Shown piece by piece: positions 1,230 through 48,800 of a DNA stretch of 64,000 bases. Numbering within the stretch: the stretch's first letter is position 1; each line of letters starts with the position of its first letter. The notes below the pieces were generated by a model. It saw nothing but the letters and a program-made list of their open reading frames with translations, made no database searches and was not told where the DNA came from. A program made the position numbers and the translations under genes. Source of the stretch: Owenia fusiformis (taxonomy: Eukaryota > Annelida > Polychaeta > Sabellida > Oweniidae); contig CAIIXF020000012.1 in assembly GCA_903813345.2 (NCBI GenBank), positions 909,318 through 973,317 on the forward strand, in the 5' to 3' direction.

Positions 1230-1389
1230 ATGATGAGGGTATTGCTGTCCTGTTGCTTGGTTGCCATGGTGATGTCAGACATTGACTTTGGTTACCATGA
1301 CTACGATGCATTGACAGCAGCAATGAGAGCTATTGAACAAAACAACTCTGGGATTGCCTACATGTACTCAGCAGGGAAATCTGTGCAAG
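1230..1389 (+). CDS. Carboxypeptidase exon 1 (first coding exon)
   Basis: It encodes the signal peptide and the N-terminal segment ending SAGKSVQ, which matches the SIGKSV-type segment of the family. Two adjacent ATGs (1230 and 1233) are possible starts. An acceptor-like tract ending AG at 1221-1222 suggests a spliced 5' untranslated exon farther upstream. The donor CAAG|GTATGT at 1389/1390 is the seed of the 30-bp array that follows. The exon ends in phase 1. Confidence 0.85.
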
Positions 1390-4300
1390 GTATGTGGCAA
1401 GTGCAAAGTCAGGAGCAAGGAGTTTGCAAGAGGGAATTCAGGTACAAAGGAGATTGTAAGCAGGAATTTGGGTGCAAGGGAGGTAGCAAGTAGGAATTCA
1501 AGTGCAAGGGATTTTGTAAGTGGGAATTTGGGTGCAAGGAAGTGTGCAAGTTGGTATTCTGGTGCAAGGGAGGTTGCAAGTGGGAATTCAGGTGCAAGGA
1601 GGCTACAGATCTTATATCACTGAATAGAGAAGATGTATCATGAAATAGAGAAAATGTATCATAGAAGAGAAGAAGTATTAGGGAATAGAGAAGATGTATC
1701 ATGGATTAGAGAAGGTTATCATGGAATAGAGAATATGTATCATGGAAAAGAGAAGATATATCATGAAATAGAAAAATGTATCATGGAAAAGAGAAGATGT
1801 ATCATGGAATAGAGAATATGTATCATGGAATAGAGATGATGTATCATGAAATAAAGAATTATCATGGAATAGAGAAGATGTATCATGAAATAAAGAAGAT
1901 GAATCATAAATAGAGAAGATGTATCATGGATTAGAGAAGATGTATCATGAAATAGAGAAGATTTATCATGGAATAAAGAAGATGTATCATGGAATAGAGA
2001 AGATGTATCATGGAATAGAGATGATGCATCATGGAATAGAGAAGATGTATAATGGAATAGAGAAGATGTATCATGGAATAGAGAATATGTATCATGGAAT
2101 AGAGAAGATGTATCATGGAATAGAGAAGATGTATCATGGAATAGAGATGATGCATCATGGAATAGAGAAGATGTATCATGGAATAGAGAAGATGTATCAT
2201 TGAATAGAGAAGATGTATCATGGAATAGAAAAGATGTATCATGAAATAGAGAATATGTATCATGGAATAGAGAAGATGTATCATTGAATAGAGAAGATGT
2301 ATCATGAAATAAAGAAGATGAATCATAAATAGAGAAGATGTATCATGGATTAGAGAAGATGTATCATGGAATAGAGAAGATGTATCATGAAATAAAGAAG
2401 ATGAATCATAAATAGAGAAGATGTATCATGGATTAGAGAAGATGTATCATGAAATAGAGAAGATTTATCATGGAATAAAGAAGATGTATAATGGAATAGA
2501 GAATATGTATCATGGAATAGAGAAGATGTATCATGGAATAGAGAAGATGAATCATAAATAGAGAAGATGTATCATGGAAAAGAGAAGATGTATAATGGAA
2601 TAGAGAAGATTTATCATGGAATAAAGAAGATGTATAATGGAATAGAGAATATGTATCATTGAATAGAGAAGATATATCATGGAATAGAGAAGATGTATCA
2701 TGGAATAGAGAAGATGTATAACGGAATAGAGAAGATGTATAATGGAATAGAGAAGATGTTTCATGGAATAGAGAAGATGTATAACGGAATAGAGAAGATG
2801 TATCATGGAATAGAGAATATGTATCATGGAATAGAGAAGATGTATCATGGAATAGAGAAGATGTATCATGGAATAGAGAAGATGTATCATGGAATAGAGA
2901 ATATGTATCATGGAATAGAGATGATGCATCATGGAATAGAGAAGATGTATCATGGAATAGAAAAGATGTATCATGGAATGTAGAAGATGTATCATGGAAT
3001 TGAGAATATGTATCATGGAATAGAGAATGTGTATCATGGAATAGAGAAGATGTATCATGGAATAGAGAAGATGTATCATGGAATGGAGAATATGTATCAT
3101 GGAATAGAGAAGATGTATCATGGAATAGAGAAGATGCATCATGGAATAGAGAATATGTATCATGGAATAGAGAAGATGTATCATGGAATAGAGATGATGC
3201 ATCATGGAATAGAGAAGATGTATCATGGAATAGAAAAGATGTATCATGGAATGTAGAAGATGTATCATGGAATTGAGAATATGTATCATGGAATAGAGAA
3301 TGTGTATCATGGAATAGAGAAGATGTATCATGGAATAGAGAAGATGTATCATGGAATGGAGAATATGTATCATGGAATAGAGAAGATGTATCATGGAATA
3401 GAGAAGATGCATCATGGAATAGAGAAGATGTATCATGGAATAGAGAAGATGTATCATGGAATAGAGAAGATGTATCATGGAATAGAGAAGATGTATCATG
3501 GAATAAAGAAGATGAATCATAAATAGAGAAGATGTATCATGGATTAGAGAAGATGTATCATGAAATAGAGAAGATTTATCATGGAATAAAGAAGATGTAT
3601 CATGGAATAGAGAAGATGTATCATGGAATAGAGAAGATGTATCATGGAATAGAGAAGATGTATCATGGAATAGAGAAGATGTATCATGGAATAGAGAATG
3701 TGTATCATGGAATGTAGAAGATGTATCATGGAATTGAGAATATGTATCATGGAATAGAGAAGATGCATCATGGAATAGAGAAGATGTATCATGGAATAGA
3801 GAAGATGTATCATGGAATAGAGAAAATGTATCATTGAATAGAGAAAATATATCATGGAATAGAGAAGATGCATCATGGAATAGAGAATGTGTATCATGGA
3901 ATAGAGAAGATGTATCATGGAATAGAGAAGATGTATCATGGAATAGAGAAGATGCATCATGGAATAGAGAAAATGTATCATTGAATAGAGAAAATATATC
4001 ATGGAATAGAGAAGATGCATCATGGAATAGAGAAGATGTATCATGGAATAGAGAATGTGTATCATGGAATAGAGAATGTGTATCATGGAATAGAGAAAAT
4101 ATATCATGGAATAGAGAAGATGTATCATGGAATAGAGAAGATGTATCATGGAATGTAGGAGATGTATCATGAAAGAGAAGATGTATCATGGAATAAAGAA
4201 TGTGAATCATGGAATAGAGAAGATGGGAGACACACTTTTACTGTATTGCACATTGACAATAGTGATGTCTCACAGTCTAGATCTACTATATAATTATTTT

Positions 4301-7300
4301 ATTTGCACATTGTATAATCTGAGTTGCATTTTTTAGGGCGTGACCTCTGGGTGATGACCTTGGGAGAGAAACCACTTCAGCACCTCCCCCTCAGGCCAGA
4401 AGTGAAATATGTTGGCAATATGCATGGGAATGAGGTATGCTTCCTAAATGTTGAGATTGTTCCAAAAAACATAACAGTATTTAATTCATGTAAGCCTTTG
4501 ATAAATAGAGGATATTTACTGGGATGAATTTAATATGGGTTTTACACCAAGGGCAGGCCCGTAGCCAGGGGGGTTCGGGGGTTCGGGCGAACCCCCCTTG
4601 GCCAAAATTTCTTTCAAAATCATGCAGTTTTTCACCATTCTGACTTATTTTTTGAGTGATTTTTGGCCAAATTTGCTAAAGTGAACCCCCCCTAGAATTT
4701 TTTGGAAAAGTGAACCCCCTTGGAAAATTCTGGCTACGTGCCTGAAGGGCCAATATGATTTTTCTGGTGTTATATTCACCTGGAGTATCCTTGTATGAAC
4801 ATGTAATTATGTGTGAACTGAAAAAAGGTTCAAAAAACTTAAAACAAAACATGAAAAATGTACATTTCTTTCAAAAATATACTCTTGTGTTCCAGGTTGT
4901 AGGCAGAGAAATGTTGCTCCATCTGATCGATTACCTAGCAACTGGTTACGGCACAAACGATACCATAACAACGATGTTTAGAGAGTCCCGCATTCACATT
5001 ATGCCTACAATGAACCCGGATGGCTTTGAGTATGCCTACCATAACCAAAGTCAGGAAGGGAATTGTGGGGGCATTGTAGGGAGGTTGGTACATTGCCATT
5101 CATTTAATGTAATGACCTATTACATGTATATGCCTACCATAACCAAAGCCAGGAAGGACATGTGGTGGTATTGTAGGGAGGTTGGTACACTACCATTAAT
5201 TATTGTAATGACCTATTACATGTATATGCCTACCATAACCAAAGCCAGGAAGGGAATTGTGGGGGCATTGTAGGGAGGTTGGTACATTGCCATTCATTTA
5301 ATGTAATGACCTATTACATGTATATGCCTACCATAACCAAAGCCAGGAAGGGAATTGTGGGGGCATTGTAGGGAGGTTGGTACATTGCCATTCATTTAAT
5401 GTAATGACCTATTACATGTATATGCCTACCATAACCAAAGCCAGGAAGGGAATTGTGGGGGCATTGTAGGGAGGTTGGTACAGTACCATTCATTTAATGT
5501 AATGACCTATTACATGTATATGCCTACCATAACCAAAGCCAGGAAGGGAATAGTGGGGGCATTGTAGGGAGGTTGGTACACTGCCATTCATTTAATGTAA
5601 TGACCTATTACATGTATATGCCTACCATAACCAAAGCCAGGAAGGGAATTGTGGGGGCATTGTAGGGAGGTTGGTACATTGCCATTCATTTAATGTAATG
5701 ACCTATTACATGTATATGCCTACCATAACCAAAGCCAGGAAGGGAATTGTGGGGGCATTGTAGGGAGGTTGGTACAGTACCATTCATTTAATGTAATGGC
5801 CTATTACATGTATATGCCTACCATAACCAAAGTCAGGAAGGGAATTGTGGGGGAATTGTAGGGAGGTTGGTACACTGCCATTCATTTAATGTAATGACCT
5901 ATTACATGTATATGCCTACCATAACCAAAGTCAGGAAGGGAATTGTGGGGGCATTGTAGGGAGGTTGGTACAGTACCATTCATTTAATGTAATAACCTAT
6001 TACATGTATATGCCTACCATAACCAAAGCCAGGAAGGGAATTGTGGGGGCATTGTAGGGAGGTTGGTACATTGCCATTCATTTAATGTAATGACCTATTA
6101 CATGTATATGCCTACCATAACCAAAGCCAGGAAGGGAATTGTGGGGGCATTGTAGGGAGGTTGGTACAGTACCATTCATTTAATGTAATAACCTATTACA
6201 TGTATATGCCTACCATAACCAAAGCCAGGAAGGGAATTGTGGGGGCATTGTAGGGAGGTTGGTACAGTACCATTCATTTAATGTAATAACCTATTACATG
6301 TATATGCCTACCATAACCAAAGCCAGGAAGGGAATTGTGGGGGCATTGTAGGGAGGTTGGTACACTGCCATTCATTTAATGTAATGACCTATTACATGTA
6401 TATGCCTACCATAACCAAAGCCAGGAAGGGAATTGTGGGGGCATTGTAGGGAGGTTGGTACAGTACCATTCATTTAATGTAATGACCTATTACATGTATA
6501 TGCCTACCATAACCAAAGCCAGGAAGGGAATTGTGGGGGCATTGTAGGGAGGTTGGTACATTGCCATTCATTTAATGTAATGACCTATTACATGTATATG
6601 CCTACCATAACCAAAGCCAGGAAGGGAATTGTGGGGGCATTGTAGGGAGGTTGGTACACTGACATTCATTTAATGTAATGACCTATTACATGTATATGCC
6701 TACCATAACCAAAGCCAGGAAGGGAATAGTGGGGGCATTGTAGGGAGGTTGGTACATTGCCATTCATTTAATGTAATGACCTATTACATGTATATGCCTA
6801 CCATAACCAAAGCCAGGAAGGGAATTGTGGGGGCATTGTAGGGAGGTTGGTACACTGCCATTCATTTAATGTAATGACCTATTACATGTATATGCCTACC
6901 ATAACCAAAGCCAGGAAGGGAATAGTGGGGGCATTGTAGGGAGGTTGGTACATTGCCATTCATTTAATGGAATGACCTATTACATGTATATGCCTACCAT
7001 AACCAAAGCCAGGAAGGGAATAGTGGGGGCATTGTAGGGAGGTTGGTACAGTACCATTCATTTAATGTAATGACCTATTACATGTATATGCCTACCATAA
7101 CCAAAGTCAGGAAGGGAATTGTGGGGGCATTGTAGGGAGGTTGGTACAGTACCATTCATTTAATGTAATGACCTATTACATGTATATGCCTACCATAACC
7201 AAAGTCAGGAAGGGAAATGTGGGGGCATTGTAGGGAGGTTGGTACATTGCCATTCATTTAATGTAATGACCTATTACATGTATATGCCTACCATAACCAA

Positions 7301-10300
7301 AGCCAGGAAGGGAATTGTGGGGGCATTGTAGGGAGGTTGGTACATTGCCATTCATTTAATGTAATAACCTATTACATGTATATGCCTACCATAACCAAAG
7401 TCAGGAAGGGAATTGTGGGGGCATTGTAGGGAGGTTGGTACATTGCCATTCATTTAATGTAATGACCTATTACATGTATATGCCTACCATAACCAAAGCC
7501 AGGAAGGGAATAGTGGGGGCATTGTAGGGAGGTTGGTACACTGCCATTCATTTAATGTAATGACCTATTACATGTATATGCCTACCATAACCAAAGCCAG
7601 GAAGGGAATTGTGGGGGCATTGTAGGGAGGTTGGTACATTGCCATTCATTTAATGTAATGACCTATTACATGTATATGCCTACCATAACCAAAGCCAGGA
7701 AGGGAATTGTGGGGGCATTGTAGGGAGGTTGGTACACTACCATTCATTTAATGTAATGACCTATTACATGTATATGCCTACCATAACCAAAGCCAGGAAG
7801 GGAATTGTGGGGGCATTGTAGGGAGGTTGGTACAGTACCATTCATTTAATGTAATGACCTATAACATGTATAGGCCTACCATAACCAAAGCCAAGAAGGG
7901 AATTGTGGGGGCATTGTAGGGAGGTTGGTACAGTACCATTCATTTAATGTAATGACCTATTACATGTATATGCCTACCATAACCAAAGTCAGGAAGGGAA
8001 TTGTGGGGGCATTGTAGGGATGTTGGTACAGTTCCATTCATTTAATTTAATGACCTATTACATGTATATGCCTACCATAACCAAAGCCAAGAAGGGAATT
8101 GTGGGGGCATTGTAGGGAGGTTGGTACAGTACCATTCATTTAATGTAATGACCTATTACATGTATATGCCTACCATAACCAAAGCCAAGAAGGGAATTGT
8201 GGGGGCATTGTAGGGAGGTTGGTACAGTACCATTCATTTAATGTAATGACCTATTACATGTACATGCCTACCATAACCAAAGTCAGGAAGGGAATTGTGG
8301 GGGCATTGTAGGGAGGTTGGTACACTGACATTCATTTAATGTAATGACCTATTACATGTATATTCCTACCATAACCAAAGCCAGGAAGGGAATTGTGGGG
8401 GCGTTGTAGGGAGGTTGGTACACTGACATTCATTTAATGTAATGACCTATTACATGTATATGCCTACCATTACCAAAGTCAGGGAGGTAATTGTGGGGGC
8501 ATTGTAGGGAGGTTGGTACAGTACCATTCATTTAATGTAATGACCTATTACATGTATATGCCTACCATAACCAAAGTCAGGAAGGGAATTGTGGGGGCAT
8601 TGTAGGGAGGTTGGTATACTGCCATTCATTTAATGTAATGACCTATTACATGTATATGCCTACCATAACCAAAGCCAGGAAGGGAATTGTGGGGGCATTG
8701 TAGGGAGGTTGGTACACTGCCATTCATTTAATGTAATGACCTATTACATGTATATGCCTACCATAACCAAAGTCAGGAAGGGAATTGTGGGGGCATTGTA
8801 GGGAGGTTGGTACAGTACCATTCATTTAATGTAATGACCTATTACATGTATATGCCTACCATAACCAAAGTCAGGAAGGGAATTGTGGGGGCATTGTAGG
8901 GAGGTTGGTACATTGCCATTCATTTAATATACTGGCCTATTACATGTATATGCCTACGATAACCAAAGTCAGGAGGTGACATGTGGGGGCATTGTAGGGA
9001 GGTTGGTACAGTACCATTCATTTAATGTAATGACCTATTACATGTATATGCCTACCATAACCAAAGCCAGGAAGGGAAGTGTGGGGGCATTGTAGGGAGG
9101 CTGGTACAGTACCATTCATTTAATGTAATGACCTATTACATGTATATGCCTACCATAACCAAAGCCAGGAAGGGAATTGTGGGGGCATTGTAGGGAGGTT
9201 GGTACATTGCCATTCATTTGATGTAATGACCTATTACATCTATATGCCTACCATGACCAAAACCAAGAAGGGAATTGTGGGGGCATTGTAGGGAGGTTGG
9301 TACAGTACCATTCATTTAATGTAATGACCTATTATGTGTATATGCCTACCATAACCAAAGCCAGGAAGGGAATTGTCGGGGCATTGTAGGGAGGTTGGTA
9401 CATTGCCATTCATTTAATGTAATGACCTATTACATGTATATGCCTACCATAACCAAAATCAGGAAGGGAATTGTGGGGGCATTGTAGGGAGGTTGGTACA
9501 TTGCCATTCATTTAATGTAATGACCTATTACATGTATATGCCTACCATAACCAAAGTCAGGAAGGGAATTGTGGGGGCATTGTAGGGAGGTTGGTACACT
9601 GCCATTCATTTAATGTAATGACCTATTACATGTATATGCCTACCATAACCAAAGCCAGGAAGGGAATTGTGGGGGCATTGTAGGGAGGTTGGTACATTGC
9701 CATTCATTTAATGTAATGACCTATTACATGTATATGCCTACCATAACCAAAGCCAGGAAGGGAATTGTGGGGGCATTGTAGGGAGGTTGGTACAGTACCA
9801 TTCATTTAATGTAATGACCTATTACATGTATATGCCTACCATAACCAAAGCCAGGAAGGGAATTGTGGGGGCATTGTAGGGAGGTTGGTACATTGCCATT
9901 CATTTAATGTAATGACCTATTACATGTATATGCCTACCATAACCAAAGCCAGGAAGGGAATTGTGGGGGCATTGTAGGGAGGTTGGTACAGTACCATTCA
10001 TTTAATGTAATGACCTATTACATGTATATGCCTACCATAACCAAAGCCAGGAAGGGAATTGTGGGGGCATTGTAGGGAGGTTGGTACAGTACCATTCATT
10101 TAATGTAATGACCCATTACATGTATATGCCTACCATAACCAAAGCCAGGAGGGAATAGTGGGGGCATTGTAGGGAGGTTGGTACATTGCCATTCATTTAA
10201 TGTAATGACCTATTACATGTATATGCCTACCATGACCAAAGCCAGGAAGGGAATTGTGGGGGCATTGTAGGGAGGTTGGTACAGTACCATTCATTTAATG

Positions 10301-13300
10301 TAATGACCTATTACATGTATATGCCTACCATAACCAAAGCCAGGAAGATAATAGTGGGGGCATTGTAGGGAGGTTGGTACATTGCTATTCATTTAATGTA
10401 ATGACCTATTACATGTATATGCCTACCATGACCAAAGCCATGAAGGGAATTGTGGGGGCATTGTAGGGAGGTTGGTACATTGCTATTCATTTAATGTAAT
10501 GACCTATTACATGTATATGCCTACCATAACCAAAGCCATGAAGGGAATTGTGGGGGCATTGTAGGGAGGTTGGTACATTGCCATTCATTTAATGTAATGA
10601 CCTATTACATGTATATGCCTACCATAACCAAAGTCAGGAAGGGAATTGTGGGGGCATTGTAGGGAGGTTGGTACAGTACCATTCATTTAATGTAATGACC
10701 TATTATGTGTATATGCCTACCATAACCAAAGTCAGGAAGGGAATTGTGGGGGCATTGTAGGGAGGTTGGTACATTGCTATTCATTTAATGTAATGACCTA
10801 TTACATGTATATGCCTACCATAACCTAAGCCAGGAAGGGAATTGTGGGGGCATTGTAGGGAGGTTGGTACATTGCCATTCATTTAATGTAATGACCTATT
10901 ACATGTACATGCCTACCATAACCAAAGTCAGGAAGGGAATTGTGGGGGCATTGTAGGGAGGTTGGTACAGTACCATTCATTTAATGTAATGACCTATTAC
11001 ATGTATATGCCTACCATAACCAAAGTCAGGAAGGGAATTGTGGGGCATTGTAGGGAGGTTGGTACAGTACCATTCATTTAATGTAATGACCTATTACATG
11101 TATATGCCTACCATAACCAAAGTCAGGAAGGGAATTGTGGGGGCATTGTAGGGAGGTTGGTACATTGCCATTCATTTAATGTAATGACCTATTACATGTA
11201 TATGCCTACCATGACCAAAGCCAAGAAGGGAATTGTGGGGGCATTGTAGGGAGGTTGGTACATTGCCATTCATTTAATGTAATGACCTATTACATGTATA
11301 TGCCTACCATAACCAAAGCCAGGAAGGGAATTGTGGGGGCATTGTAGGGAGGTTGGTACAGTACCATTCATTTAATGTAATGACCTATTACATGTATATG
11401 CCTACCATAATCAAAGTCAGGAAGGGAATTGTGGGGGCATTGTAGGGAGGTTGGTACAGTACTATTCATTTAATGTAATGACCTATTACATGTATATGCC
11501 TACCATAACCAAAGCCAGGAAGGGAATTGTGGAGGCATTGTAGGGAGGTTGGTACATTGCCATTCTTTTAATGTAATGACCTATTACATGTATATGCCTA
11601 CCATAACCAAAGCCAGGAAGGGAATTGTGGGGGCATTGTAGGGAGGTTGGTACAGTACCATTCATTTAATGTAATGACCTATTACATGTATATGCCTACC
11701 ATAACCAAAGCCAGGAAGGGAATTGTGGGGGAATTGTAGGGAGGTTGGTACACTGCTATTCATTTAATGTAATGACCTATTACATGTATATGCCTACCAT
11801 AACCAAAGCCAGGAAGGGAATTGTGGGGGCTTTGTAGGGAGGTTGGTACATTGCCATTCATTTTATGTAATGACCTATTACATGTACATGCCTACCATAA
11901 CCAAAGCCAGGAATGGAAGTGTGGGGGCATTGTAGGGAGGTTGGTACAGTACCATTCATTTTATGTAATGACCTATTACATGTACATGCCTACCATAACC
12001 AAAGCCAGGATGGAATTGTGGGGGCATTGTAGGGAGGTTGGTACAGCACCATTCATTTTATGTAATGACCTATTACATGTACATGCCTAACATACCCAAA
12101 GCCAGGAAGGGAATTGTGGGGGCATTGTAGGGAGGTTGGTACATTGCCATTCATTTAATGTAATGACCTATTACATGTATATGCCTACCATAACCAAAGT
12201 CAGGAAGGGAATTGTGGGGGCATTGTAGGGAGGTTGGTACAGTACCATTCATTTAATGTAATGACCTATTACATGTACATGCCTACCATACCCAAAGCCA
12301 GGAAGGGAATTGTGGGGGCATTGTAGGGAGGTTGGTACACTGCCATTCATTTTATGTAATGACCTATTACATGTACATGCCTACCATAACCAAAGCCAGG
12401 AATGGAAGTGTGGGGGCATTGTAGGGAGGTTGGTACAGTACCATTCATTTTATGTAATGACCTATTACATGTACATGCCTACCATAACCAAAGCCAGGAG
12501 GGAATTGTGGGGGCATTGTAGGGAGGTTGGTACAGCACCATTCATTTTATGTAATGACCTATTACATGTACATGCTTACCATAACCAAAGCCAGGAGGGG
12601 AATTGTGGGGGCATTGTAGGGAGGTTGGTACAGTACCATTCATTTTATGTAATGACCTATTACATGTATATGCCTACCATAACCAAAGTCAGGAAGGGAA
12701 TTGTGGGGGCATTGTAGGGAGGTTGGTACAGTACCATTCATTTTATGTAATGACCTATTACATGTACATGCCTACCATACCCAAAGCCAGGAGGGAATTG
12801 TGGGGGCATTGTAGGGAGGTTGGTACAGCACCATTCATTTTATGTAATGACCTATTACATGTACATGCTTACTATAACCAAAGTCAGGAAGGGAATTGTG
12901 GTGGTATTGTAGGGAGGTTGGTACACTACCATTCATTTAATGTAATGACCTATTACATGTATATGCCTACCATAACCAAAGCCAGGAAGGGAATTGTGGG
13001 GGCATTGTAGGGAGGTTGGTACACTACCATTCATTTAATGTAATGACCTATTACATGTATATGCCTACCATAACCAAAGTCAGGAAGGGAATTGTGGGGG
13101 CATTGTAGGGAGGTTGGTACAGTACCATTCATTTTATGTAATGACCTATTACATGTACATGCCTACCATACCCAAAGCCAGGAGGGAATAGTGGGGGCAT
13201 TGTAGGGAGGTTGGTACAGTACCATTCATTTTATGTAATGACCTATTACATGTATATGCCTACCATAACCAAAGCCAGGAAGGGAATTGTGGGGGCATTG

Positions 13301-16300
13301 TAGGGAGGTTGGTACATTGCCATTCATTTAATGTAATAACATATTACATGTATATGCCTACCATAACCAAAGTCAGGAAGGGAATTGTGGGGGCATTGTA
13401 GGGAGGTTGGTACAGCACCATTCATTTAATGTAATGACCTATTACATGTATATGCCTACCATAACCAAAGCCAGGAAGGGAATAGTGGGGGCATTGTAGG
13501 GAGGTTGGTACACTGCCATTCATTTAATGTAATGACCTATTACATGTATATGCCTACCATAACCAAAGCCAGGAAGGGAATTGTGGGGGCATTGTAGGGA
13601 GGTTGGTACATTGCCATTCATTTAATGTAATGACCTATTACATGTATATGCCTACCATAACCAAAGCCAGGAAGGGAATTGTGGGGGAATTGTAGGGAGG
13701 TTGGTACACTGCCATTCATTTAATGTAATGACCTATTACATGTATATGCCTACCATAACCAAAGCCAGGAGGGAATAGTGGGGGCATTGTAGGGAGGTTG
13801 GTACATTGCCATTCATTTAATGTAATGACCTATTACATGTATATGCCTACCATAACCAAAGCCAGGAAGGGAATTGTGGGGGCATTGTAGGGAGGTTGGT
13901 ACACTACCATTCATTTAATGTAATGACCTATTACATGTATATGCCTACCATAACCAAAGCCAGGAAGGGAATTGTGGAGGCATTGTAGGGAGGTTGGTAC
14001 ATTGCCATTCATTTAATGTAATGACCTATTACATGTATATGCCTACCATAACCAAAGCCAGGAAGGGAATTGTGGGGGCATTGTAGGGAGGTTGGTACAT
14101 TGCCATTCATTTAATGTAATGACCTATTACATGTATATGCCTACCATAACCAAAGCCAGGAAGGGAATTGTGGGGGCATTGTAGGGAGGTTGGTACAGTA
14201 CCATTCATTTAATGTAATAACCTATTACATGTATATGCCTACCATAACCAAAGCCAGGAAGGGAATTGTGGGGGTATTGTAGGGAGGTTGGTACAGTACC
14301 ATTCATTTTATGTAATGACCTATTACATGTACATGCCTACCATACCCAAAGCCAGGAAGGGAATTGTGGGGGCATTGTAGGGAGGTTTGTACAGTACCAT
14401 TCATTTAATGTAATGACCTATTACATGTATATGCCTACCATACCCAAAGCCAGGAAGGGAATTGTGGGGGCATTGTAGGGAGGTTTGTACAGTACCATTC
14501 ATTTAATGTAATGACCTATTACATGTACATGCCTACCATAACCAAAGCCAGGAAGGGAATTGTGGGGCATTGTAGGGAGGTTGGTACAGTACCATTCATT
14601 TAATGTAATGACCTATTACATGTATATGCCTACCATAACCAAAGCCAGGAAGGGAATTGTGGTGGTATTGTAGGGAGGTTGGTACATTGCCATTCATTTA
14701 ATGTAATGACCTATTACATGTATATGCCTACCATAACCAAAGCCAGGAAGGGAATTGTGGGGGCATTGTAGGGAGGTTGGTACAGTACCATTCATTTAAT
14801 GTAATGACCTATTACATGTATATGCCTACCATAACCAAAGTCAGGAAGGGAATTGTGGGGGCATTGTAGGGAGGTTGGTACAGTACCATTCATTTAATGT
14901 AATGACCTATTACATGTATATGCCTACCATAACCAAAGTCAGGAAGGGAATTGTGGGGGCATTGTAGGGAGGTTGGTACAGTACCATTCATTTAATGTAA
15001 TGACCTATTACATGTATATGCTTACCATAACCAAAGTCAGGAAGGGAATTGTGGGGGCATTGTAGGGAGGTTGGTACATTGCCATTCATTTAATGTAATG
15101 ACCTATTACATGTATATGCCTACCATAACCAAAGCCAGGAAGGGAATTGTGGGGGCATTGTAGGGAGGTTGGTACACTGCCATTCATTTAATGTAATGAC
15201 CTATTACATGTATATGCCTACCATAACCAAAGCCAGGAAGGGAATTGTGGGGGCATTGTAGGGCCTAGGGAGGTTGGTACAGTACCATTCATTTAATGTA
15301 ATGACCTATTACATGTATATGCCTACCATAACCAAAGTCAGGAAGGGAATTGTGGTGGTATTGTAGGGAGGTTGGTACAGTACCATTCATTTAATGTAAT
15401 GACCTATTACATGTATATGCCTACCATAACCAAAGCCAGGAATGGAAGTGTGGGGGCATTGTAGGGAGGTTGGTACAGTACCATTCATTTTATGTAATGA
15501 CCTATTACATGTACATGCCTACCATAACCAAAGCCAGGAGGGAATTGTGGGGGCATTGTAGGGAGGTTGGTACATTGCCATTCATTTAATGTAATGACCT
15601 ATTACATGTATATGCCTACCATAACCAAAGCCAGGAAGGGAATTGTGGGGGCATTGTAGGGAGGTTGGTACATTGCCATTCATTTAATGTAATGACCTAT
15701 TACATGTACATGCCTACCATAACCAAAGTCAGGAAGGGAATTGTGGGGGAATTGTAGGGAGGTTGGTACATTGCTATTCATTTAATGTAATGACCTATTA
15801 CATGTATATGCCTACCATAACCAAAGTCAGGAAGGGAATTGTGGGGGCATTGTAGGGAGGTTGGTACAGTACCATTCATTTAATGTAATGACCTATTACA
15901 TGTACATGCCTACCATACCCAAAGCCAGGAAGGGAATTGTGGGGGCATTGTAGGGAGGTTGGTACACTGCCATTCATTTTATGTAATGACCTATTACATG
16001 TACATGCCTACCATAACCAAAGCCAGGAATGGAAGTGTGGGGGCATTGTAGGGAGGTTGGTACAGTACCATTCATTTTATGTAATGACCTATTACATGTA
16101 CATGCCTACCATAACCAAAGCCAGGAGGGAATTGTGGGGGCATTGTAGGGAGGTTGGTACAGCACCATTCATTTTATGTAATGACCTATTACATGTACAT
16201 GCTTACCATAACCAAAGCCAGGAGGGGAATTGTGGGGGCATTGTAGGGAGGTTGGTACAGTACCATTCATTTAATGTAATGACCTATTACATGTATATGC

Positions 16301-35650: not shown

Positions 35651-35723
35651 ATAGTATATACAATGTTAGGAATTATGTCATCAGTTAACGTACATTTAGC
35701 TACAGAGAGTATAACCACGCGGT

Positions 35724-36126
35724 ACTAACTTCGACCGTTAATTTGAATTTTTGACCTACCAGATGCTTGAAAATCAAGGATTGCGAGTCTCATACAGCAC
35801 CGTTTTTCTTCAAACTTATACCATTAAATGCAAAACAAAGATGCCTTTCTGTCGGTGCATTACTTTATTGTAAAGAGTCCCTCGTTCTGGCAGCGTTTTG
35901 GTCCCTAGCTGTTAGAAGGCCTTCTTACAGCTGGGGACCAAAATGCCGCTGGAAATAGGGACTCTGTTTAAGAGAATAATGTTCCAACAGAAAGGGATTT
36001 TTGTTATGCTTTGAATGGAATAGAACAAGTTTGAAGAAAAACGGTGCAGTATGAGACTCGTAATCCTTGATTTTCAAACATCTGGTAGGTCAAAAATTCC
36101 AATTAACGGTACCGGTCGAAGTTAGT
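35724..36126. mobile_element. Long palindromic fold-back element
   Basis: The left arm starts ACTAACTTCGACCG and the right arm ends CGGTCGAAGTTAGT. The arms stay complementary almost to the middle, where TTAGAAGGCCTTCTTACAG forms the centre. The whole 403 bp would fold into one long hairpin with few mismatches. No coding sequence is present. It lies between the two tail-to-tail genes. Confidence 0.8.
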
Positions 36127-36763: not shown

Positions 36764-36873
36764 CTATTCATATTGAAACTCCAGACCAATTTCCTGAAGT
36801 TTAGGACGAAGATAATCATCAATTCTCTCACTTTGAGCTACAGTTATTTTATCTTTCCAGTCACCAATGGCAC
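36764..36873 (-). CDS. Sulfotransferase exon 7 (C-terminal signature)
   Basis: It completes RKGAIGDWKDKITVAQSERI, the PAPS-binding and dimer-region signature (RKGxxGDWKxxFT in most members, with Ile for Phe here), then DDYLRPKLQEIGLEFQYE and TAG at 36766-36764. Acceptor TTCATAG. Confidence 0.92.
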
Positions 36874-39800
36874 CTATGAAAATAGAGCGAAAATGTCAGA
36901 TAATCAACAAGAATAAAAGCCATGGGAAGCGTGATATGTTTTCAGTTTGTTTCTGTCGGTCATCTTAGCATACACAGACATATTCTCAAATAATCAACTA
37001 GAAGTATGGGATGCCTACCTTTACGCATGTGGGCAGCGTGATATGTGGTTCAGTTTGTTTCTGTCGGTCATCTTAGCATACACAGACATGTTCTCAAATA
37101 ATCAACTAGAAGTATGGGATGCTTACCTTTACGCATGTGGGCAGCGTGATATGTCTTCAGTTTGTTTGTATCAGTCACCTTAGCATATACAGACATGTTT
37201 TCAAATGCTTTTCCGGTCTTTGGATTATTTTTCATGTTTCTAAATTGTAGATATTCTGCAATTTTTTTGATTTTACCCTCCGAAAGATCTTTATTCAGGA
37301 ACTTAGCAAGTTTCGTCACCACTGATGTGATGTCCTGAAATGTATACACATCAGTTGTTTTCTCGAATGTCCATTATATTTTATTTATTGAAAGTTAAAT
37401 TCACATTATCTCCCTCCTATTTATTAATTGTTTTCATTGCTAATCTTGACGAAACGCTTTTAACCCAATCCTTGTCAAGATTATCCTTGTGATGACCACC
37501 GCGCATGTTTAAACCGAATGAGGAATAAAGCATGTTAAGAGGAGTGGAAAGCCCAAGAGTTTTAAAGATGACAGACATAAATACGTCTCTTGCTTACCAC
37601 CTTCGTTCGTTCGAATTTTCATTGGCTAATTTTCAAATACTACACTTCGTATGTCATCTCAATACAGGTTTACATTATAAGCGTATGTCATCTTTGGACT
37701 CTGGTGTTATTCCCCCTCTGAAGCATGTTCTTTATTAGACAGTACCTTGATCATGTCTTCATAATAGATGAAGTGGATGTTTCCATTCATTCTGTCTCTG
37801 TTCTGCCACCAACCACTGACGTGATTCAACCACGTGCCATATGATACTATAGGGGTAAACATAACTGTTGTTCATGAGCAAAGTTAAAAAAGGTGGGTAG
37901 TTAATATTCTTCATATAATCGTTTGGCTCAACCAGGAAATTAGTATATGTAATTGCCCATTCTTGCTGGTTCACCTACTCTTTGCATTCATGTAAGAACT
38001 GTTTAATTTGTTTAAAAATGTTCTTTTACAAAACGGTCGCCATAATTAAGTCAAACATAATGAAAGGTAAACGAATATACTGCAAATTATAAATGCTTCC
38101 TGTTCACTATGTGAAACCAACAAAAAGTGCCATTTTATTGGCACCATTTTACATATTTCGCAACAAGGTAAAAGAAAATATGGTATTTTGTATGCGTTTT
38201 TGGTTGATATCTCCAGGTAATAACCACTCTCTGTGAATTACCTCTGTGTATTACTATGTAGATGTATTACCTAGATCTTGTGCCTCAGTCAAATGACTAT
38301 TAAGATACCCATCAAATGTTAGAGGTTTTTGGTACTTCTCTGGAATCAGAATCTCATACTGGTACTTGCTGTTTAGTACTGATTTGGGGTTCCTTAGGAC
38401 TACGACTACCTAAAATAGAGCACATAGAAATATTATAGCCCCCAGTTTTGTTGCTGTCAAGATCAGCCGTTTTTTTTAAATTCTACGATTTGGGAGTTGT
38501 TTACAATCGGAACTTAAACTGTTTGCTTGTAAAAATATTTGGAATCGAAATTGTACTCGAAATTGAAGGTTTATCGATATCAAAATAAGTTTTGTCCACC
38601 GTCTTGTTTACCTTGCAACATATCTTGTCACGCAATCCAGTTGTTAACCTGGCAAAATATGTGGTCAAGCAGTCCAGTTGTTTACCTTGCAATATATCTG
38701 GTCATGCAGTCCATTGTTTACATTGCAATATATCTTGTCATGCAGTCCAGTTGTTTACATTGCAATATATCTTGTCATGCAGTCCAGTTGTTTACTTTGC
38801 AATATATCTTGTCATGCAGTCCAGTTGTTTACATTGAAATATATACTGTCAAGCAGTCCATTGTTTACCTTGCAACATATCTTGTCATGCAGTCCAGTTG
38901 TTTACCTTGCAATATATCTGGTCATGCAGTCCAGTTGTTTACATTGCAATATATCTGGTCATGTAGTCCAGTTGTTTACCTTGCAATATATCTGGTCATG
39001 CAGTCCAGTTGTTTACATTGCAATATATCTGGTCATGTAGTCCAGTTGTTTACCTTGCAATATATCTGGTCATGCAGTCCAGTTGTTTACATTGCAATAT
39101 ATCTGGTCATGCAGTCCAGTTGTTTGCCTTGCAATATATCTGGTCATGCAGTCCAGTTGTTCACACTGCAATATATCTGGTCATGCAGTCCAGTTGTTTA
39201 CTTTCCAATATATCTTGTCATGCAGTCCAATTGTTAACATTGCAATATATCTTGTCATGCAGCCCAGTTGTTTACTTTGCAATATATCTTGTCATGCAGT
39301 CCAGTTGTTTACTTTGCAATATATCTGGTCATGCAGTCCAGTTGTTTACTTTGCAATATATCTGGTCATGTAGTCCAGTTGTTTACCTTGCAATATATCT
39401 GGTCATGCAGTCCAGTTGTTTACTTTGCAATATATCTGGTCACGCAGTCCAGTTGTTTACATTGCAATATATCTGGCCATGCAGTCCAGTTGTTTACTTT
39501 GCAATATATCTGGTCATGTAGTCCAGTTGTTTACCTCGCAATATATCTGGTCATGCAGTCCAGTTGTTTACCTCGCAATATATCTGGTCATGCAGTCCAG
39601 TTGTTTACCTTGCAATATATCTTGTCATGCAGTCCAGTTGTTTACCTTGCAACATATCTGGTCATGCAGTCCAGTTGTTTACATTGCAATATATCTGGTC
39701 GAGCAGTCCAGTTGTTTACATTGCAATATATCTCGTCATGCAGTCCAGTTGTTTACCTAGCAATATATCTGGTCATGCAGTCCAGTTGTTTACTTTGCAA

Positions 39801-42800
39801 TATATCTGGTCATGCAGTCCAATTGTTTACCTAAGTTGCAATATATCTTGTCATGCAGTCCAGTTGTTTACTTTGCAATATATCTGGTCATGCAGTCCAA
39901 TTGTTAACATTGCAATATATCTTGTCATGCAGTCCAGTTGTTTACCTTGCGATATATCTCATCATGCAGTCCAGTTGTTTACCTTATAATATGTCTGGTC
40001 CAGTTGTTTACCTCATGATATATCTGGTCATGCAGTCGATGTTTAACTTTCTATTTATCTTGTCATTCAGTGTAGCTAATATATGTACAGAGCACTTGTT
40101 TTACCTTACATATACCCCGTCGGACAGATTCAGGCATTGCCTCCAAACAAAGATGGCTACAGAGTAGTCGTGGAGAAGGCCACATTTCTGCTTCAGTCAT
40201 TGGATTAATGCCATCCGCTGCCATAGATACTTCTCCATTCCATACTTCAAAATAAAATAAACAATCACACTTCTTGACAGTTATAACATTTCCCATCTGA
40301 TGTGCTCAGATCACAGAATATGCCTCTTATATCAGAGCTTGTTTCAGGTTAAACAGAGAGATGCTATGAGTATCACAATGAATGATAAGATAAGTTACTT
40401 GACTTTATAACTCCAAATAACGTCCCATATAAGTATCTATTACAGATCGTGCAGACCATTGTTGCTTGCTTTATAGCAAAAACATCACGAATTTAGGACT
40501 TTCCAGGGAATTAGTTCATCCATTTTATATCATGTCACCATGAATAAGCCAATGAGCATCATGATATGGGGTATATGATATATGTTTTAACATTGAAATC
40601 TAATATAAATGACTTACTTTGTTGTGACATATGCATCCATATACTTCTCTGATTGATGTGTATCTTATCTGCAGCCTCTATATCTCCATTCCTCATCACT
40701 AAGTCTACCAACGCTATGGACAAGTGAGTACCTATATTATATGAGACCATTCTTCAGTAAAAAGCAATGGGAGAGATCAAGTCTACCATGGCTATGGAAA
40801 AGTGAGTACCTATATTATATGAGACCATTCTTAAGTAAAAAGCAATGAGACAGATCAAGTTTAATAAGGCTATGGTCAAGTGAGTACCTATATAAATGAG
40901 ACCATTCTTCAGTAAAAAGCAATGAAAGAGATCAAGTCTACTAAGGCTATGGTCAAGTGAGTACCTATATTAATGAGACCATTCTTCAGTAAAAAGCAAT
41001 GAGAGAGATCAAGTCTACCATGGCTATGGGCAAGTGGGTACTTATATTATATGAGACCATTCTTCAGTAGAAAGCAATGAGAGAGATCAAGTCTACCAAG
41101 GCTATGGACAAGTGAGTACCTATATTAATGAGACCATTCTTCAGTAAAAAGCAATGAGAGAGATCAAGTCTACTAAGGCTATGGACAAGTGGGTACCTAT
41201 ATATTATGAGACCATTCTTCAGTAAAAAGCAATGAGAGAGATCAAGTCTATTAAGGCTATGGTCAAGTGAGTACCTATATTATGAGACCATTCTTCAGTA
41301 AAAAGCAATGAGAGAGATCAAGTCTACTAAGGCTATGGTCAAGTGAGTACCTATATTATATGAGACCATTCTTCAGTAAAAAGCAATGAGAGAGATCAAG
41401 TCTACCAAGGCTATGGACAAGTGAGTACCTATATTAATGAGACCATTCTTAAGTAAAAAGCAATGAGAGAGATCAAGTCTACTAAGGCTATGGACAAGTG
41501 AGTACCTGTATTAATGAGACCATTCTTCAGTAAAAAGCAATGAGAGAGATCAAGTCTACTAAGGCTATGGTCAAGTAAGTACCTATATTAATGAGACCAT
41601 TCTTCAGTAAAAAGCAATGAGAGAGATCAAGTCTACTAAGGCTATGGACAAGTGGGTACCTATATATTATGAGACCATTCTTCAGTAAAAAGCAATGAGA
41701 GAGATCAAGTCTATTAAGGCTATGGTCAAGTGAGTACCTATATTATGAGACCATTCTTCAGTAAAAAGCAATGTGAGAGATCAAGTCTACCAAGGCTATG
41801 GTCAAGTGATTACCTATATTATATGAGACCATTCTTCAGTAAAAAGCAATGTGAGAGATCAAGTCTACCAAGGCTATGGTCAAGTGAGTACCTATATTAA
41901 TGAGACCATTCTTCAGTAAAAAGCAATGAGAGACATCAAGTCTACCAAGGCTATGGTCAAGTGATTACCTATATTATATGAGACCATTCTTCAGTAAAAA
42001 GCAATGTGAGAGATCAAGTCTACCAAGGCTATGGTCAAGTGAGTACCTATATTATATGAGACCATTCTTCAGTAAAAAGCAATGTGAGAGATCAAGTCTA
42101 CCAAGGCTATGGTCAAGTGAGTACCTATATTATATGAGACCATTCTTAAGTAAAAAGCAATGTGAGAGATCAAGTCTACCAAGGCTATGGTCAAGTGAGT
42201 ACCTATATTATATGAGACCATTCTTAAGTAAAAAGCAATGTGAGAGATCAAGTCTACCAAGGCTATGGTGAAGTGAGTACCTATATTAATGAGACCATTC
42301 TTCAGTAAAAAGCAATGAGAGAGATCAAGTCTACTAAGGCTATGGACAAGTGAGTACCTATATTAATGAGACCATTCTTAAGTAAAAAGCAATGTGAGAG
42401 ATCAAGTCTACCAAGGCTATGGTCAAGTGAGTACCTATATTATATGAGACCATTCTTAAGTAAAAAGCAATGTGAGAGATCAAGTCTACCAAGGCTATGG
42501 TCAAGTGAGTACCTATATTATATGAGACCATTCTTAAGTAAAAAGCAATGTGAGAGATCAAGTCTACCAAGGCTATGGTCAAGTGAGTACCTATATTAAT
42601 GAGACCATTCTCCAGTAAAAAGCAATGAGAGAGATCAAGTCTACCAAGGCTATGGTCAAGTGAGTACCTATATTATGTGAGACCATTCTTAAGTAAAAAG
42701 CAATGTGAGAGATCAAGTCTACCAAGGCTATGGTGAAGTGAGTACCTATATTAATGAGACCATTCTTCAGTAAAAAGCAATGAGAGAGATCAAGTCTACC

Positions 42801-45800
42801 AAGGCTATGGACAAGTGAGTACCTATATTATATGAGACCATTCTTCAGTAAAAAGCAATAAGAGAGATCAAGCCTACCAAGGCTATGGACAAGTGAGTAC
42901 CTATATTATGAGACCATTCTCCAGTAAAAAGCAATGAGAGAGATCAAGTCTACTAAGGCTATGGTCAAGTGAGTACCTATATTATATGAGACCATTCTTC
43001 AGTAAAAAGCAATGAGAGAGATCAAGTCTACCAAGGCTATGGACAAGTGAGTACCTATATTAATGAGACCATTCTTAAGTAAAAAGCAATGAGAGAGATC
43101 AAGTCTACTAAGGCTATGGACAAGTGAGTACCTGTATTAATGAGACCATTCTTCAGTAAAAAGCAATGAGAGAGATCAAGTCTACTAAGGCTATGGTCAA
43201 GTAAGTACCTATATTAATGAGACCATTCTTCAGTAAAAAGCAATGAGAGAGATCAAGTCTACTAAGGCTATGGACAAGTGGGTACCTATATATTATGAGA
43301 CCATTCTTCAGTAAAAAGCAATGAGAGAGATCAAGTCTATTAAGGCTATGGTCAAGTGAGTACCTATATTATGAGACCATTCTTCAGTAAAAAGCAATGT
43401 GAGAGATCAAGTCTACCAAGGCTATGGTCAAGTGATTACCTATATTATATGAGACCATTCTTCAGTAAAAAGCAATGTGAGAGATCAAGTCTACCAAGGC
43501 TATGGTCAAGTGAGTACCTATATTAATGAGACCATTCTTCAGTAAAAAGCAATGAGAGACATCAAGTCTACCAAGGCTATGGTCAAGTGATTACCTATAT
43601 TATATGAGACCATTCTTCAGTAAAAAGCAATGTGAGAGATCAAGTCTACCAAGGCTATGGTCAAGTGAGTACCTAAATTATATGAGACCATTCTTCAGTA
43701 AAAAGCAATGTGAGAGATCAAGTCTACCAAGGCTATGGTCAAGTGAGTACCTATATTATATGAGACCATTCTTAAGTAAAAAGCAATGTGAGAGATCAAG
43801 TCTACCAAGGCTATGGTCAAGTGAGTACCTATATTATATGAGACCATTCTTAAGTAAAAAGCAATGTGAGAGATCAAGTCTACCAAGGCTATGGTGAAGT
43901 GAGTACCTATATTAATGAGACCATTCTTCAGTAAAAAGCAATGAGAGAGATCAAGTCTACTAAGGCTATGGACAAGTGAGTACCTATATTAATGAGACCA
44001 TTCTTAAGTAAAAAGCAATGTGAGAGATCAAGTCTACCAAGGCTATGGTCAAGTGAGTACCTATATTATATGAGACCATTCTTAAGTAAAAAGCAATGTG
44101 AGAGATCAAGTCTACCAAGGCTATGGTCAAGTGAGTACCTATATTATATGAGACCATTCTTAAGTAAAAAGCAATGTGAGAGATCAAGTCTACCAAGGCT
44201 ATGGTCAAGTGAGTACCTATATTAATGAGACCATTCTCCAGTAAAAAGCAATGAGAGAGATCAAGTCTACCAAGGCTATGGTCAAGTGAGTACCTATATT
44301 ATATGAGACCATTCTTAAGTAAAAAGCAATGTGAGAGATCAAGTCTACCAAGGCTATGGTGAAGTGAGTACCTATATTAATGAGACCATTCTTCAGTAAA
44401 AAGCAATGAGAGAGATCAAGTCTACTAAGGCTATGGACAAGTGGGTACCTATATATTATGAGACCATTCTTCAGTAAAAAGCAATGAGAGAGATCAAGTC
44501 TACCAAGGCTATGGTGAAGTGAGTACCTATATTAATGAGACCATTCTTCAGTAAAAAGCAATGAGAGAGATCAAGTCTACTAAGGCTATGGACAAGTGAG
44601 TACCTATATTAATGAGACCATTTTTAGTAAAAAGCAATGAGAGAGATCAAGTCTACTAAGGCTATGGACAAGTGAGTACCTATATTAATGAGACCATTTT
44701 TAGTAAAAAGCAATGAGAGAGATCAAGTCTACTAAGGCTATGGTGAAGTGAGTACCTATATTAATGAGACCATTCTTAAGTAAAAAGCAATGTGAGAGAT
44801 CAAGTCTACCAAGGCTATGGACAAGTGAGTACCTATATTAATGAGACCATTCTTCAGTAAAAAGCAATAAGAGAGATCAAGTCTACCATGGCTATGGTGA
44901 AGTGAGTACCTATATTAATGAGACCATTCTTCAGTAAAAAGCAATGAGAGAGATCAAGTCTACTAAGGCTATGGTGAAGTGAGTACCTATATTATGAGAC
45001 CATTCTTCAGTAAAAAGCAATAAGAGAGATCAAGTCTACCAAGGCTATGGACAAGTGAGTACCTGTATTAATGAGACCATTCTTCAGTAAAAAGCAATAA
45101 GAGAGATCAAGTCTACCAAGGCTATGGACAAGTGAGTACCTATATTAATGAGACCATTCTTCAGTAAAAAGCAATGAGAGAGATCAAGTCTACCATGGCT
45201 ATGGACAAGTGAGTACCTATATTATATGAGACCATTCTTCAGTAAAAAGCAATGAAAGAGATCAAGTCTACCAAGGCTATGGTCAAGTGAGTACCTGTAT
45301 TAATGAGACCATTCTTCAGTAAAAAGCAATGAGACAGATCAAGTCTAGCAAGGCTATGGACAAGTGAGTACCTATATTAATGAGACCATTCTTCAGTAAA
45401 AAGCAATGAAAGAGATCAAGTCTACCAAGGCTATGGACAAGTGAGTACCTATATTAATGAGACCATTCTTCAGTAAAAAGCAATGAGAGAGATCAAGTCT
45501 ACCATGGCTATGGTCAAGTGAGTACCTATATTAATGAGACCATTCTTCAGTAAAAAGCAATGAGACAGATCAAGTCTAGCAAGGCTATGGACAAGTGAGT
45601 ACCTGTATTAATGAGACCATTCTTCAGTAAAAAGCAATGAGAGAGATCAAGTCTACTAAGGCTATGGTGAAGTGAGTACCTATATTATGAGACCATTCTT
45701 CAGTAAAAAGCAATGTGAAAGATCAAGTCTACCTGTACCAAGGCTATGGTCAAGTGAGTACCTACATTATGAGATCATTCTTCAGTAAAAAGCAATGAGA

Positions 45801-48800
45801 AAGATCAAGTCTACCAAGGCTATGGTCAAGTGAGTACCTATATTATGAGACCATTCTTCAGTAAAAAGCAATGAGAGAGATCAAGTCTACCAAGGCTATC
45901 GTGAAGTGAGTACCTATATTATGAGACCATTCTTCAGTAAAAAGCAATGAGAAAGATCAAGTCTACTAAGGCTATGGTCAAGTGAGTACCTATATTATAT
46001 GAGACCATTCTTCAGTAAAAAGCAATGAGAGAGATCAAGTCTACCAAGGCTATGGACAAGTGAGTACCTGTATTAATGAGACCATTCTTCAGTAAAAAGC
46101 AATGAGAAAGATCGAGTCTACCAAGGCTATGGACAAGTGAGTACCTATATTATATGAGACCATTCTTCAGTTAAAAACAATAAGAGAGATCAAGTCTACT
46201 AAGGCTATGGTCAAGTGAGTACCTATATTATGAGATCATTCTTCAGTAAAAAGCAATGAGAGAGATCACGTCTACTAAGCCTATGGTCAAGTGAGTACCT
46301 ACATTATGAGACCATTCTTCAGTAAAAAGCAATGAGACAGATCAAGTCTACTAAGGCTATGGTGAAGTGAGTACCTATATTATGAGACCATTCTTCAGTA
46401 AAAAGCAATGAGACAGATCAAGTCTACTAAGGCTATGGTGAAGTGAGTACCTATATTATGAGACCATTCTTCAGTAAAAAGCAATGAGAGAGATCAAGTC
46501 TACCAAGGCTATGGTGAAGTAAGTACCTATATTATGAGACCATTCTTCAGTAAAAAGCAATGAGAAAGATCAAGTCTACCAAGGCTATGGTCAAGTGAGT
46601 ACCTATATTATGAGATCATTCTTCAGTAAAAAGCAATGAGAAAGATCAAGTCTACCAACGCTATGGTCAAGTGAGTACCTATATTATGAGACCATTCTTC
46701 AGTAAAAAGCAATGAGAGAGATCAAGTCTACCAAGGCTATGGTGAAGTGAGTACCTATATTATGAGACCATTCTTCAGTAAAAAGCAATGAGAAAGATCA
46801 AGTCTACTAAGGCTATGGTCAAGTGAGTACCTATATTATATGAGACCATTCTTCAGTAAAAAGCAATGAGAGAGATCAAGTCTACCAAGGCTATGGTGAA
46901 GTGAGTACCTATATTATGAGACCATTCTTCAGTAAAAAGAAATGAGAGAGATCAAGTCTACTAAGGCTATGGTGAAGTGAGTACCTATATTAATGAGACC
47001 ATTCTTTAGTAAAAAGCAATGAGAGAGATCAAGTCTACCAAGGCTATGGTCAAGTGAGTACCTATATTATGAGATCATTCTTCAGTAAAAAGCAATGAGA
47101 AAGATCAAGTCTACCAAGGCTATGGTCAAGTGAGTACCTATATTATGAGACCATTCTTCAGTAAAAAGCAATGAGAGAGATCAAGTCTACCAAGGCTATG
47201 GTCAAGTGAGTACCTATATTATGAGACCATTCTTCAGTAAAAAGCAATGAGAAAGATCAAGTCTACTAAGGCTATGGTCAAGTGAGTACCTATATTATAT
47301 GAGACCATTCTTCAGTAAAAAGCAATGAGAGAGATCAAGTCTACCAAGGCTATGGTGAAGTGAGTACCTATATTATGAGACCATTCTTCAGTAAAAAGAA
47401 ATGAGAGAGATCAAGTCTACTAAGGCTATGGTGAAGTGAGTACCTATATTAATGAGACCATTCTTTAGTAAAAAGCAATGAGAGAGATCAAGTCTACCAA
47501 GGCTATGGTCAAGTGAGTACCTATATTATGAGATCATTCTTCAGTAAAAAGCAATGAGAAAGATCAAGTCTACCAAGGCTATGGTCAAGTGAGTACCTAT
47601 ATTATGAGACCATTCTTCAGTAAAAAGCAATGAGAGAGATCAAGTCTACCAAGGCTATGGTCAAGTGAGTACCTATATTATTTTCAGAATTATTTTCCAA
47701 TTTAAACTTTGAAAATAATGTTCAAAGGTAATAATAATTGGTTCATTGCTTCTTTAAGCTACGTTCACACCAACGGCGCTTTGATGGCGCTTTAAAGCGG
47801 CTTGTAAAGCGGCACCAAAGTGTAACAAAGCTTGATTAAAGCGTCGGGGTCGTAATAGGTCGTAGAAAAGCTCGGAGTAAAGCGGGATATTCGGCAAGAG
47901 CGCCAAACATTTTTAAAGCTACGTCACACCAACGGCGAATGCCACGCTTTAAATCGGCGAGCAAAGCGCCGTCATTTTTGTTTACTTTTCCAAAAATATC
48001 ACGATCTCCTAAGTAATGTTACGCTCTGATAAGCTCTGATACGCTCTAGTTTCCGGACTTGTTACTTTGTTACGCTTATAATCACGCTTTGATAAGCTTT
48101 GGTAAGCATTATTACGCTTTGATGCGATTATGACGCTTTAATCAGGCTCTGATACGAACGCCAAGCTCTGTTGTGCATTTTCGAGATCGCCTTTATCATG
48201 ACGCTTTTGATCAAGTGGCTGTATAAAGATGCAGTGGATCCATAAAACCATTGCATCTTTGACTCGAGAAGACGATGACAGAACAACAAGATCCAGAAAT
48301 TCCAGATGGACCAGATCATGACCTATCTCAAGAAGACATGATGTTTGTCGCACGGCGTGAAAGAGCGTGAGGAAGCTTGTCAAGCGTAACAAAGTTAAAA
48401 CAAAGCGTTTCAATCCTTGATTAAAGCGTCTCAATTCGTTAAAAAGCTTGGGAGTCCTTCACGAAAGCGTAACAAAGAGTGTCAGATATTGATGAAAGCG
48501 TCCGACCTCATGTCAGATCTTCATGCCAGATCGTAGCAAAGCTTGAGACATCTAAACGAAGCGTGTCAAGTGGTAACAGACCCTGAAGAGACTGGGGTCC
48601 CCGCTTTGAACCAAGCTCTGTTAAGCTTTCCTACGCTTTGGGTCAAGCTTTGCTGAGCTTTGTTACGGTTTGTTAAGCTTTGATACGCTCTCGGCGCTTT
48701 AATCAATTCTTAACGGAGCGCCCAAAATTATTAAACAGTTTAAAAATTTTTGGCGCTCTTGCCGAACATCCCGCTTTACTCCGAGCTTTTCTACGACCTA

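Follow-up and report, generated by a model that had tools for sequence, protein, structure and literature searches.

Two neighbouring genes carry arrays built from their own splice junctions

We analysed a 64 kb window of the genome of the annelid Owenia fusiformis (assembly GCA_903813345.2, contig CAIIXF020000012.1, positions 909,318 to 973,317), representing one haplotype, in which two adjacent genes carry tandem arrays whose repeat units copy the genes' own splice junctions. Both are intact animal genes; they lie on opposite strands and have 17 introns together, 7 of which hold a junction-copying array. The plus strand carries a carboxypeptidase M-like gene (exon E1, 1230-1389, to exon E9, 32627-32806) that matches Pfam Peptidase_M14 (E 1.6e-68) and carboxypeptidase M (PDB 1uwy, E 9e-109). 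With exon 5A, its predicted spliced open reading frame is 427 aa long and contains no stop. The minus strand carries a cytosolic sulfotransferase gene (36764-52837) with seven coding exons (S1, 52837-52678, to S7, 36873-36764) and a predicted spliced frame of 323 aa, matching Pfam Sulfotransfer_1 (E 1.2e-54) and sulfotransferase 1C2 (PDB 3bfx, E 8e-43). Exon 5 of this gene had looked frame-shifted, and the reading of the gene as a pseudogene was dropped once the S4/S5 junction was correctly placed.

Protein alignments to solved relatives cross each of the seven array-bearing junctions without a gap, and we therefore regard these junctions as sound. Conserved protein is found at several of them (SQEG..GG.VGR before the E3 junction, MRK|G at S6/S7 and GTYKV at E8), and the E3/E4 junction region was aligned without a gap to gp180 (1h8l). 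Placing the junctions at the exon-side copy of each array gives the two predicted open frames of 427 and 323 aa. Exon 5 of the carboxypeptidase gene is present in four homologous alternative versions (5A 23110-23286, 5B 24057-24224, 5C 24928-25107 and 5D 25861-26061). Their lengths are all multiples of three and the M14 carboxypeptidase stays open with each, which suggests that 5A-5D may be spliced in a mutually exclusive manner.

Arrays were called with Tandem Repeats Finder (TRF). Seven of them lie at a junction, six at donors and one at an acceptor, and in each the copy next to the exon is the predicted working splice site. Every one of the seven units mixes exon and intron sequence (7-73 nt of exon, 11-47 nt of intron). 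The TRF spans of the seven arrays total 26,451 bases, of which about 0.8 kb is unrelated DNA lying in the 98-bp array.

Four arrays belong to donors of the carboxypeptidase gene, on the plus strand. The 30-bp array at the E1 donor (1383-1599, junction 1389|1390, 7.3 copies of 7 nt exon plus 23 nt intron) is old, with a mean identity to the unit of 81.7%. The largest array, with a 98-bp unit (53 nt exon plus 45 nt intron), sits at the E3 donor (5031-21693, junction 5083|5084), where 162 genuine copies, 161 of them full, occupy almost all of intron 3. The unrelated DNA inserted in it (approximate ends 19328 and 20131, no strand assigned) is possibly a mobile element, and holds a small repeat of its own of about 20 bp. 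The array at the E8 donor (30017-30506, junction 30028|30029) has about 17 copies of a 29-bp unit (12 nt exon plus 17 nt intron). A degenerate 20/21-bp array with the unit ACAGTATC (9 nt exon plus 12 nt intron) lies at the E5A donor (23278-23657, junction 23286|23287). Its TRF start is at 23308 and alignment in register extends it back over the junction, which makes it a weaker case.

The other three arrays belong to the sulfotransferase gene, on the minus strand. At the S6 donor (36923-37206, last exon base 37127) there are about 2.6 copies of a 107-bp unit (73 nt exon plus 34 nt intron). The 37-bp array at the S3 donor (38604-40130, last exon base 40105; 26 nt exon plus 11 nt intron) is the second weaker case: TRF reports it at 38604-40071, and alignment in register reaches the junction through diverged exon-side copies. 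The single acceptor array, at S2 (40701-47681, first exon base 40731), has 90 full copies of a 78-bp unit (47 nt intron plus 31 nt exon) and a higher-order period of 21 units. In the S6-S7, S3-S4, E1-E2 and E3-E4 introns, 49-376 nt remain outside arrays. The arrays had been described as beginning exactly at the junction, which does not hold, as their units reach into the exon by the lengths just given, from 7 nt at E1 to 73 nt at S6. A further 21-bp array (1615-4225, plus strand, 125 copies) lies in intron 1 of the carboxypeptidase gene, directly after the 30-bp array.

Units contain the junctions, and arrays span them more often than random placement predicts

In one assay the register of each unit was fixed at the splice site and the junction was compared with 210-211 AGGT sites outside arrays. 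Each of the seven junctions outscores all of these controls for its own unit, with Z-scores of 4.9 for S3 and 6.3 for E5A and up to 24.6 for S6; the S3 donor is marginal (13, with a control maximum of 12). When units were instead aligned locally and freely to the window, the E1, E3, E8, S6 and S2 junctions stood out, and E5A and S3 each came top of the 34 junctions for their own unit. The five arrays first described as copying a splice junction (E1, E3, E8, S6 and S2) are thereby confirmed, and the two that had been called likely (S3 and E5A) gain support from the fixed register, weakly in the case of S3.

For the position of the arrays we considered the eight main arrays. To count as one, a TRF array had to fall within either gene span and reach 5 copies or a score of 200; a 155-bp dispersed element (1.8 copies) was left out. 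Unit-length segments were dropped at random on array-free introns, either pooled (15,896 nt) or taken from each array's own intron. Seven of the eight arrays span a junction. Random placement predicts 0.82 when introns are pooled (P 2.7e-7) and 2.59 when each array is confined to its own intron (P 1.0e-4). If E5A and S3 are scored as not spanning one, the two P values become 2.9e-4 and 0.035, respectively. Adding the 155-bp element gives 7/9 (P 3.6e-6), and adding three short arrays as well gives 7/12 (P 4.0e-5). A nearest-distance test, in which overlapping TRF rows were merged and E5A entered with its best overlapping score of 207 (183 in the separate 20-bp row), placed 7 of 9 arrays within 40 nt of a junction, with 0.77 expected (P 1.1e-6). 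Over all 19 rows of the gene spans it placed 7 there, with 1.63 expected (P 6.8e-4). The claim that arrays copy splice junctions in two unrelated genes on opposite strands is thus supported, with more overlap in this window than random positions would produce.

Arrays are found at 6 of 17 donors and 1 of 17 acceptors, a difference that is not significant (Fisher P 0.085). Scored with an approximate weight matrix, donors with an array are neither stronger nor weaker than other donors (P 0.73), and the idea that arrays rescue weak donors was rejected on the same scores. Window DNA outside arrays and exons has a GC content of 0.346.

The copies look like neutral passengers

We then aligned the copies of each array in register. 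GT is present in register in one of 8 E1 copies, the real one alone, and in none of 18 E5A copies. AGGT is kept in register in 154/161 copies of E3, 13/17 of E8, both full copies of S6, 17/41 of S3 and 89/90 of S2. The E3 statistics refer to the 161 full copies left after removal of 8 forced copies over the inserted 0.8 kb (169 full copies and 163 decoys before removal); among them GT is intact in 160. The statement of the first-pass annotation that AGGT is part of the unit therefore stands for five arrays, in a minority of copies at S3, and fails for E1 and E5A. AGGT in the unit does not hold as a rule, and AG|GT is in any case what the splice consensus provides. Ranked among all 4-mers of the unit by conservation, AG|GT falls at the 63rd percentile in E1, the 72nd in E3 (cleaned set), the 89th in E5A, the 58th in E8, the 12th in S3 and the 95th in S2. 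Taken over all arrays, conservation of AG|GT does not clearly exceed that of the other 4-mers.

The exon-derived and intron-derived parts of the copies agree with the unit to a similar degree (E3 0.974 versus 0.963, E8 0.912 versus 0.913, S2 0.961 versus 0.956), and overall agreement in the full E3 copies is 96.9%. The exon-derived part of E3 contains an in-frame stop in 18 of the 161 copies and a deletion in 14. Use of a decoy splice site would abolish the normal frame in 305 of 306 cases (158 in E3, 68 at other donors and 80 at acceptors), the single frame-keeping decoy being an E5A site that would add 45 nt. Splicing must therefore take the exon-side copy, or its products are lost. On these grounds the array copies look like neutral passengers.

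Two arrays retain traces of how they grew. The 78-bp S2 array contains exactly repeated blocks of units at a lag of 21 units, and a weaker block repeat at a lag of 37 units was found in the 98-bp E3 array with a copy set that includes the forced copies over the inserted 0.8 kb. These block repeats point to block duplication by unequal exchange. Within S3, divergence is highest in the copies that adjoin the exon (0.30, 0.41 and 0.32, versus 0.05 inside), as expected if array edges escape homogenisation; such edge divergence is not clear for E3 or S2. Visual inspection of the duplication breakpoints suggested possible microhomology over a few nucleotides, which was judged uninformative.

Origin of the arrays

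We consider it very probable that the arrays are minisatellites of the type known as mirages, copied from exon ends and carried as neutral passengers in introns. A short segment across a splice junction, of 7-73 nt of exon and 11-47 nt of intron, would once have been duplicated in tandem. If the exon-side copy stayed a working splice site, the extra copies would have ended up in the intron, where they would multiply in the way minisatellites usually do, through slippage or unequal exchange, and come to form the bulk of several introns. Splicing would have to find the exon-side copy among as many as about 160 similar sites, and probably does so because the closest pair of sites is preferred under exon definition. 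Homology is ungapped across all seven junctions, and the arrays were therefore made from exon ends and not the reverse. Judging from the predicted gene structures, they lengthen introns that part old, conserved exons. A link to the birth of new introns had been drawn, which finds no support here: at the seven arrays no new intron between duplicated copies was found, the arrays being intronic and the protein ungapped across existing junctions.

Several observations weigh against this reading. The window was picked for its striking arrays, and the P values describe this window and are no genome-wide proof. Exon coordinates were rebuilt from sequence, with junctions that rest on homology and open frames. 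One of the eight main arrays, the 21-bp array of carboxypeptidase intron 1, copies none of the 34 junctions in local alignment of its unit to the window. The S3 unit, freely aligned, finds better windows elsewhere (27 versus 22 at the junction). A scan for 24-nt junction words failed to tell junctions and controls apart when one match sufficed (6/34 versus 152/600); at least three matches were reached by 3/34 junctions versus 12/600 controls. The near-complete retention of AG|GT in S2, at the 95th percentile, and its place at the 100th percentile in S6, where two full copies cannot tell, leave room for weak constraint on some copies. Finally, third-position divergence, as a sign of coding constraint on the copies, shows a slight excess that is not significant (E3 P 0.069, S2 P 0.15).

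A bias at junctions, in either the start or the retention of duplications, is likely, because a mere tolerance filter fails to explain the lack of deep-intron arrays. It had been proposed that selection simply keeps the duplications that preserve a junction. By itself this predicts no enrichment over deep intron, because duplications lying wholly inside introns would be at least as harmless. The companion proposal, that duplications start at junctions, agrees with the in-window enrichment, and one selected window cannot separate a start bias from a retention bias.

A distinct process that starts duplications at junctions, for example by breakage or re-replication at points of altered transcription and base composition, has in our estimate somewhat less than an even chance of being at work, and would be compatible with mirage-type arrays carried neutrally. 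It would account for the excess of junction-spanning arrays under both placement schemes and for the six of seven arrays at donors, and mirages have been published from independent amphioxus loci (PMC3087553, PMC3902484). The evidence comes, however, from two adjacent genes in one selected window, enrichment within introns falls to P 0.035 without the two weak cases, donor scores do not differ with or without an array, and no sequence signature of such a process was found. What one selected window provides is a suggestion of a junction-biased process. The wider proposition, that tandem duplications in this animal have their hot spots of initiation at splice junctions, chiefly at donors, and have turned a large share of its introns into kilobase decoy arrays, we put forward only tentatively.

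Retention bias is possible and less probable than such a starting process. Here duplications would arise anywhere and exon-anchored arrays would persist, since the anchoring copy is undeletable and stays recognisable. Selection does hold exon-side copies, and the four introns that are nearly all array fit this account. The 125-copy deep-intron array in the carboxypeptidase gene does not, and the exon-side copies of S3, being the most diverged, are no source of homogenisation.

Chance contact between ordinary intronic minisatellites and junctions, made conspicuous by the choice of a striking window, appears improbable. The sample is small, and some arrays lie in introns so short that contact is likely (p 0.41 for E1 and E3, 1.0 for S6). 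The E8 and S2 arrays, in contrast, lie in long introns (p 0.03 each), and the units contain the junction with exon sequence, which goes beyond mere nearness. More unlikely still is a selected function, in which decoys delay, buffer or control splicing, or arrays serve as regulatory introns. The AG|GT of S2 speaks for it, whereas outside S2 AG|GT shows no clear excess of conservation, GT is gone in register from the E1 and E5A units, and almost all decoys break the frame. That the arrays came first and gave rise to the exon ends or the introns, by intron gain or exonisation, is hardly credible: such a model is published for amphioxus globins (PMC3087553) and a related case for potato (PMC4974935), but here the exon ends at the junctions align ungapped to distant homologues and the arrays are intronic, with no new intron found.

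Relation to known junction-spanning repeats

Junction-spanning minisatellites are already published as mirages, which the first-pass annotation had missed. In amphioxus, boundary-spanning minisatellites are described in Adh3 and the globin genes BflGb6 and BflGb9, with both intron ends affected, splicing suggested to be normal by reverse transcription PCR, and a proposed role as seeds of introns (PMC3087553). Further loci include troponin C, others and PGBD5, where repeats of 60 and 108 bp lie at splice sites (PMC3902484). The hosts reported in these two papers are cephalochordates only. Length instability and even somatic polymorphism are reported for amphioxus mirages.

The Owenia arrays resemble these mirages in that units span the boundary in all seven, two by weaker matches; that donor and acceptor ends are affected, here six and one; and that many units keep AG/GT. 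In amphioxus the repeats behave as minisatellites with concerted evolution inside and edges left out; here such edge divergence is clear for S3 and not for E3 or S2. They differ in size, with 162 and about 90 copies compared with the 3-6 units reported for BflGb6 and up to 7 for PGBD5, and in that seven arrays occur in two adjacent genes. Intron gain by tandem duplication, to which a potato RdRp gene offers a related case (PMC4974935), likewise involves a duplication that crosses an intron-exon boundary. Here, unlike there, existing introns grow and none is new, and AGGT is not in every unit, being absent from the register of the E1 and E5A units. The intron-creating repeat expansion described in Cryptococcus (PMC2395259) also expands intron-bearing units; there, entire introns are multiplied within a repetitive gene, whereas here junction pieces multiply inside one intron. 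No wider genomic survey of junction-spanning arrays was found in the open-licence papers searched. The phenomenon is thus known, and what stands out is the density and size of the arrays.

The question is sharpened to whether duplications start preferentially at junctions. Were such a bias true genome-wide, introns would gain a mechanism of growth tied to their own ends. Were junctions hot spots, the evolution of intron length would be driven from the exon edge inward, and the spliceosome would have to ignore decoy sites. A genome-wide bias would also provide natural experiments on spliceosomal choice, with dozens to about 160 sites in cis that are almost the same. Exon-definition models predict that the exon-proximal site is always chosen. 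The E3 and S2 arrays offer themselves as test objects: the donor is weak (GTTGGT), equivalent decoys are numerous, and the reading frame gives a clear read-out.

Other features of the window

A tRNA-like stretch at 249-320 (GTATAGCTCAGTGGTAGCGC with a GGTTCGA-like box) is perhaps a SINE (short interspersed element); ARAGORN calls no tRNA in the window, this stretch included, and Rfam gives no match in the window. An open frame of 1144 aa on the minus strand (60104-63538) encodes a degenerate seven-residue repeat (RPGDSQM-like) and has no Pfam match. A 44-bp array with 7 copies (63692-63998) is cut by the window end and matches none of the 34 junctions tested; upstream exons of its own gene fall outside the window. 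A dispersed repeat at 28724-29009 and 53662-54628 has internal tandem units of about 135-155 bp and lies near CCGT microsatellites. Just past the far end of the 78-bp S2 array, an apparent DNA element with inverted ends (GCTACGTTCACACCAACG) was seen by eye at 47755-50960 (approximate ends).

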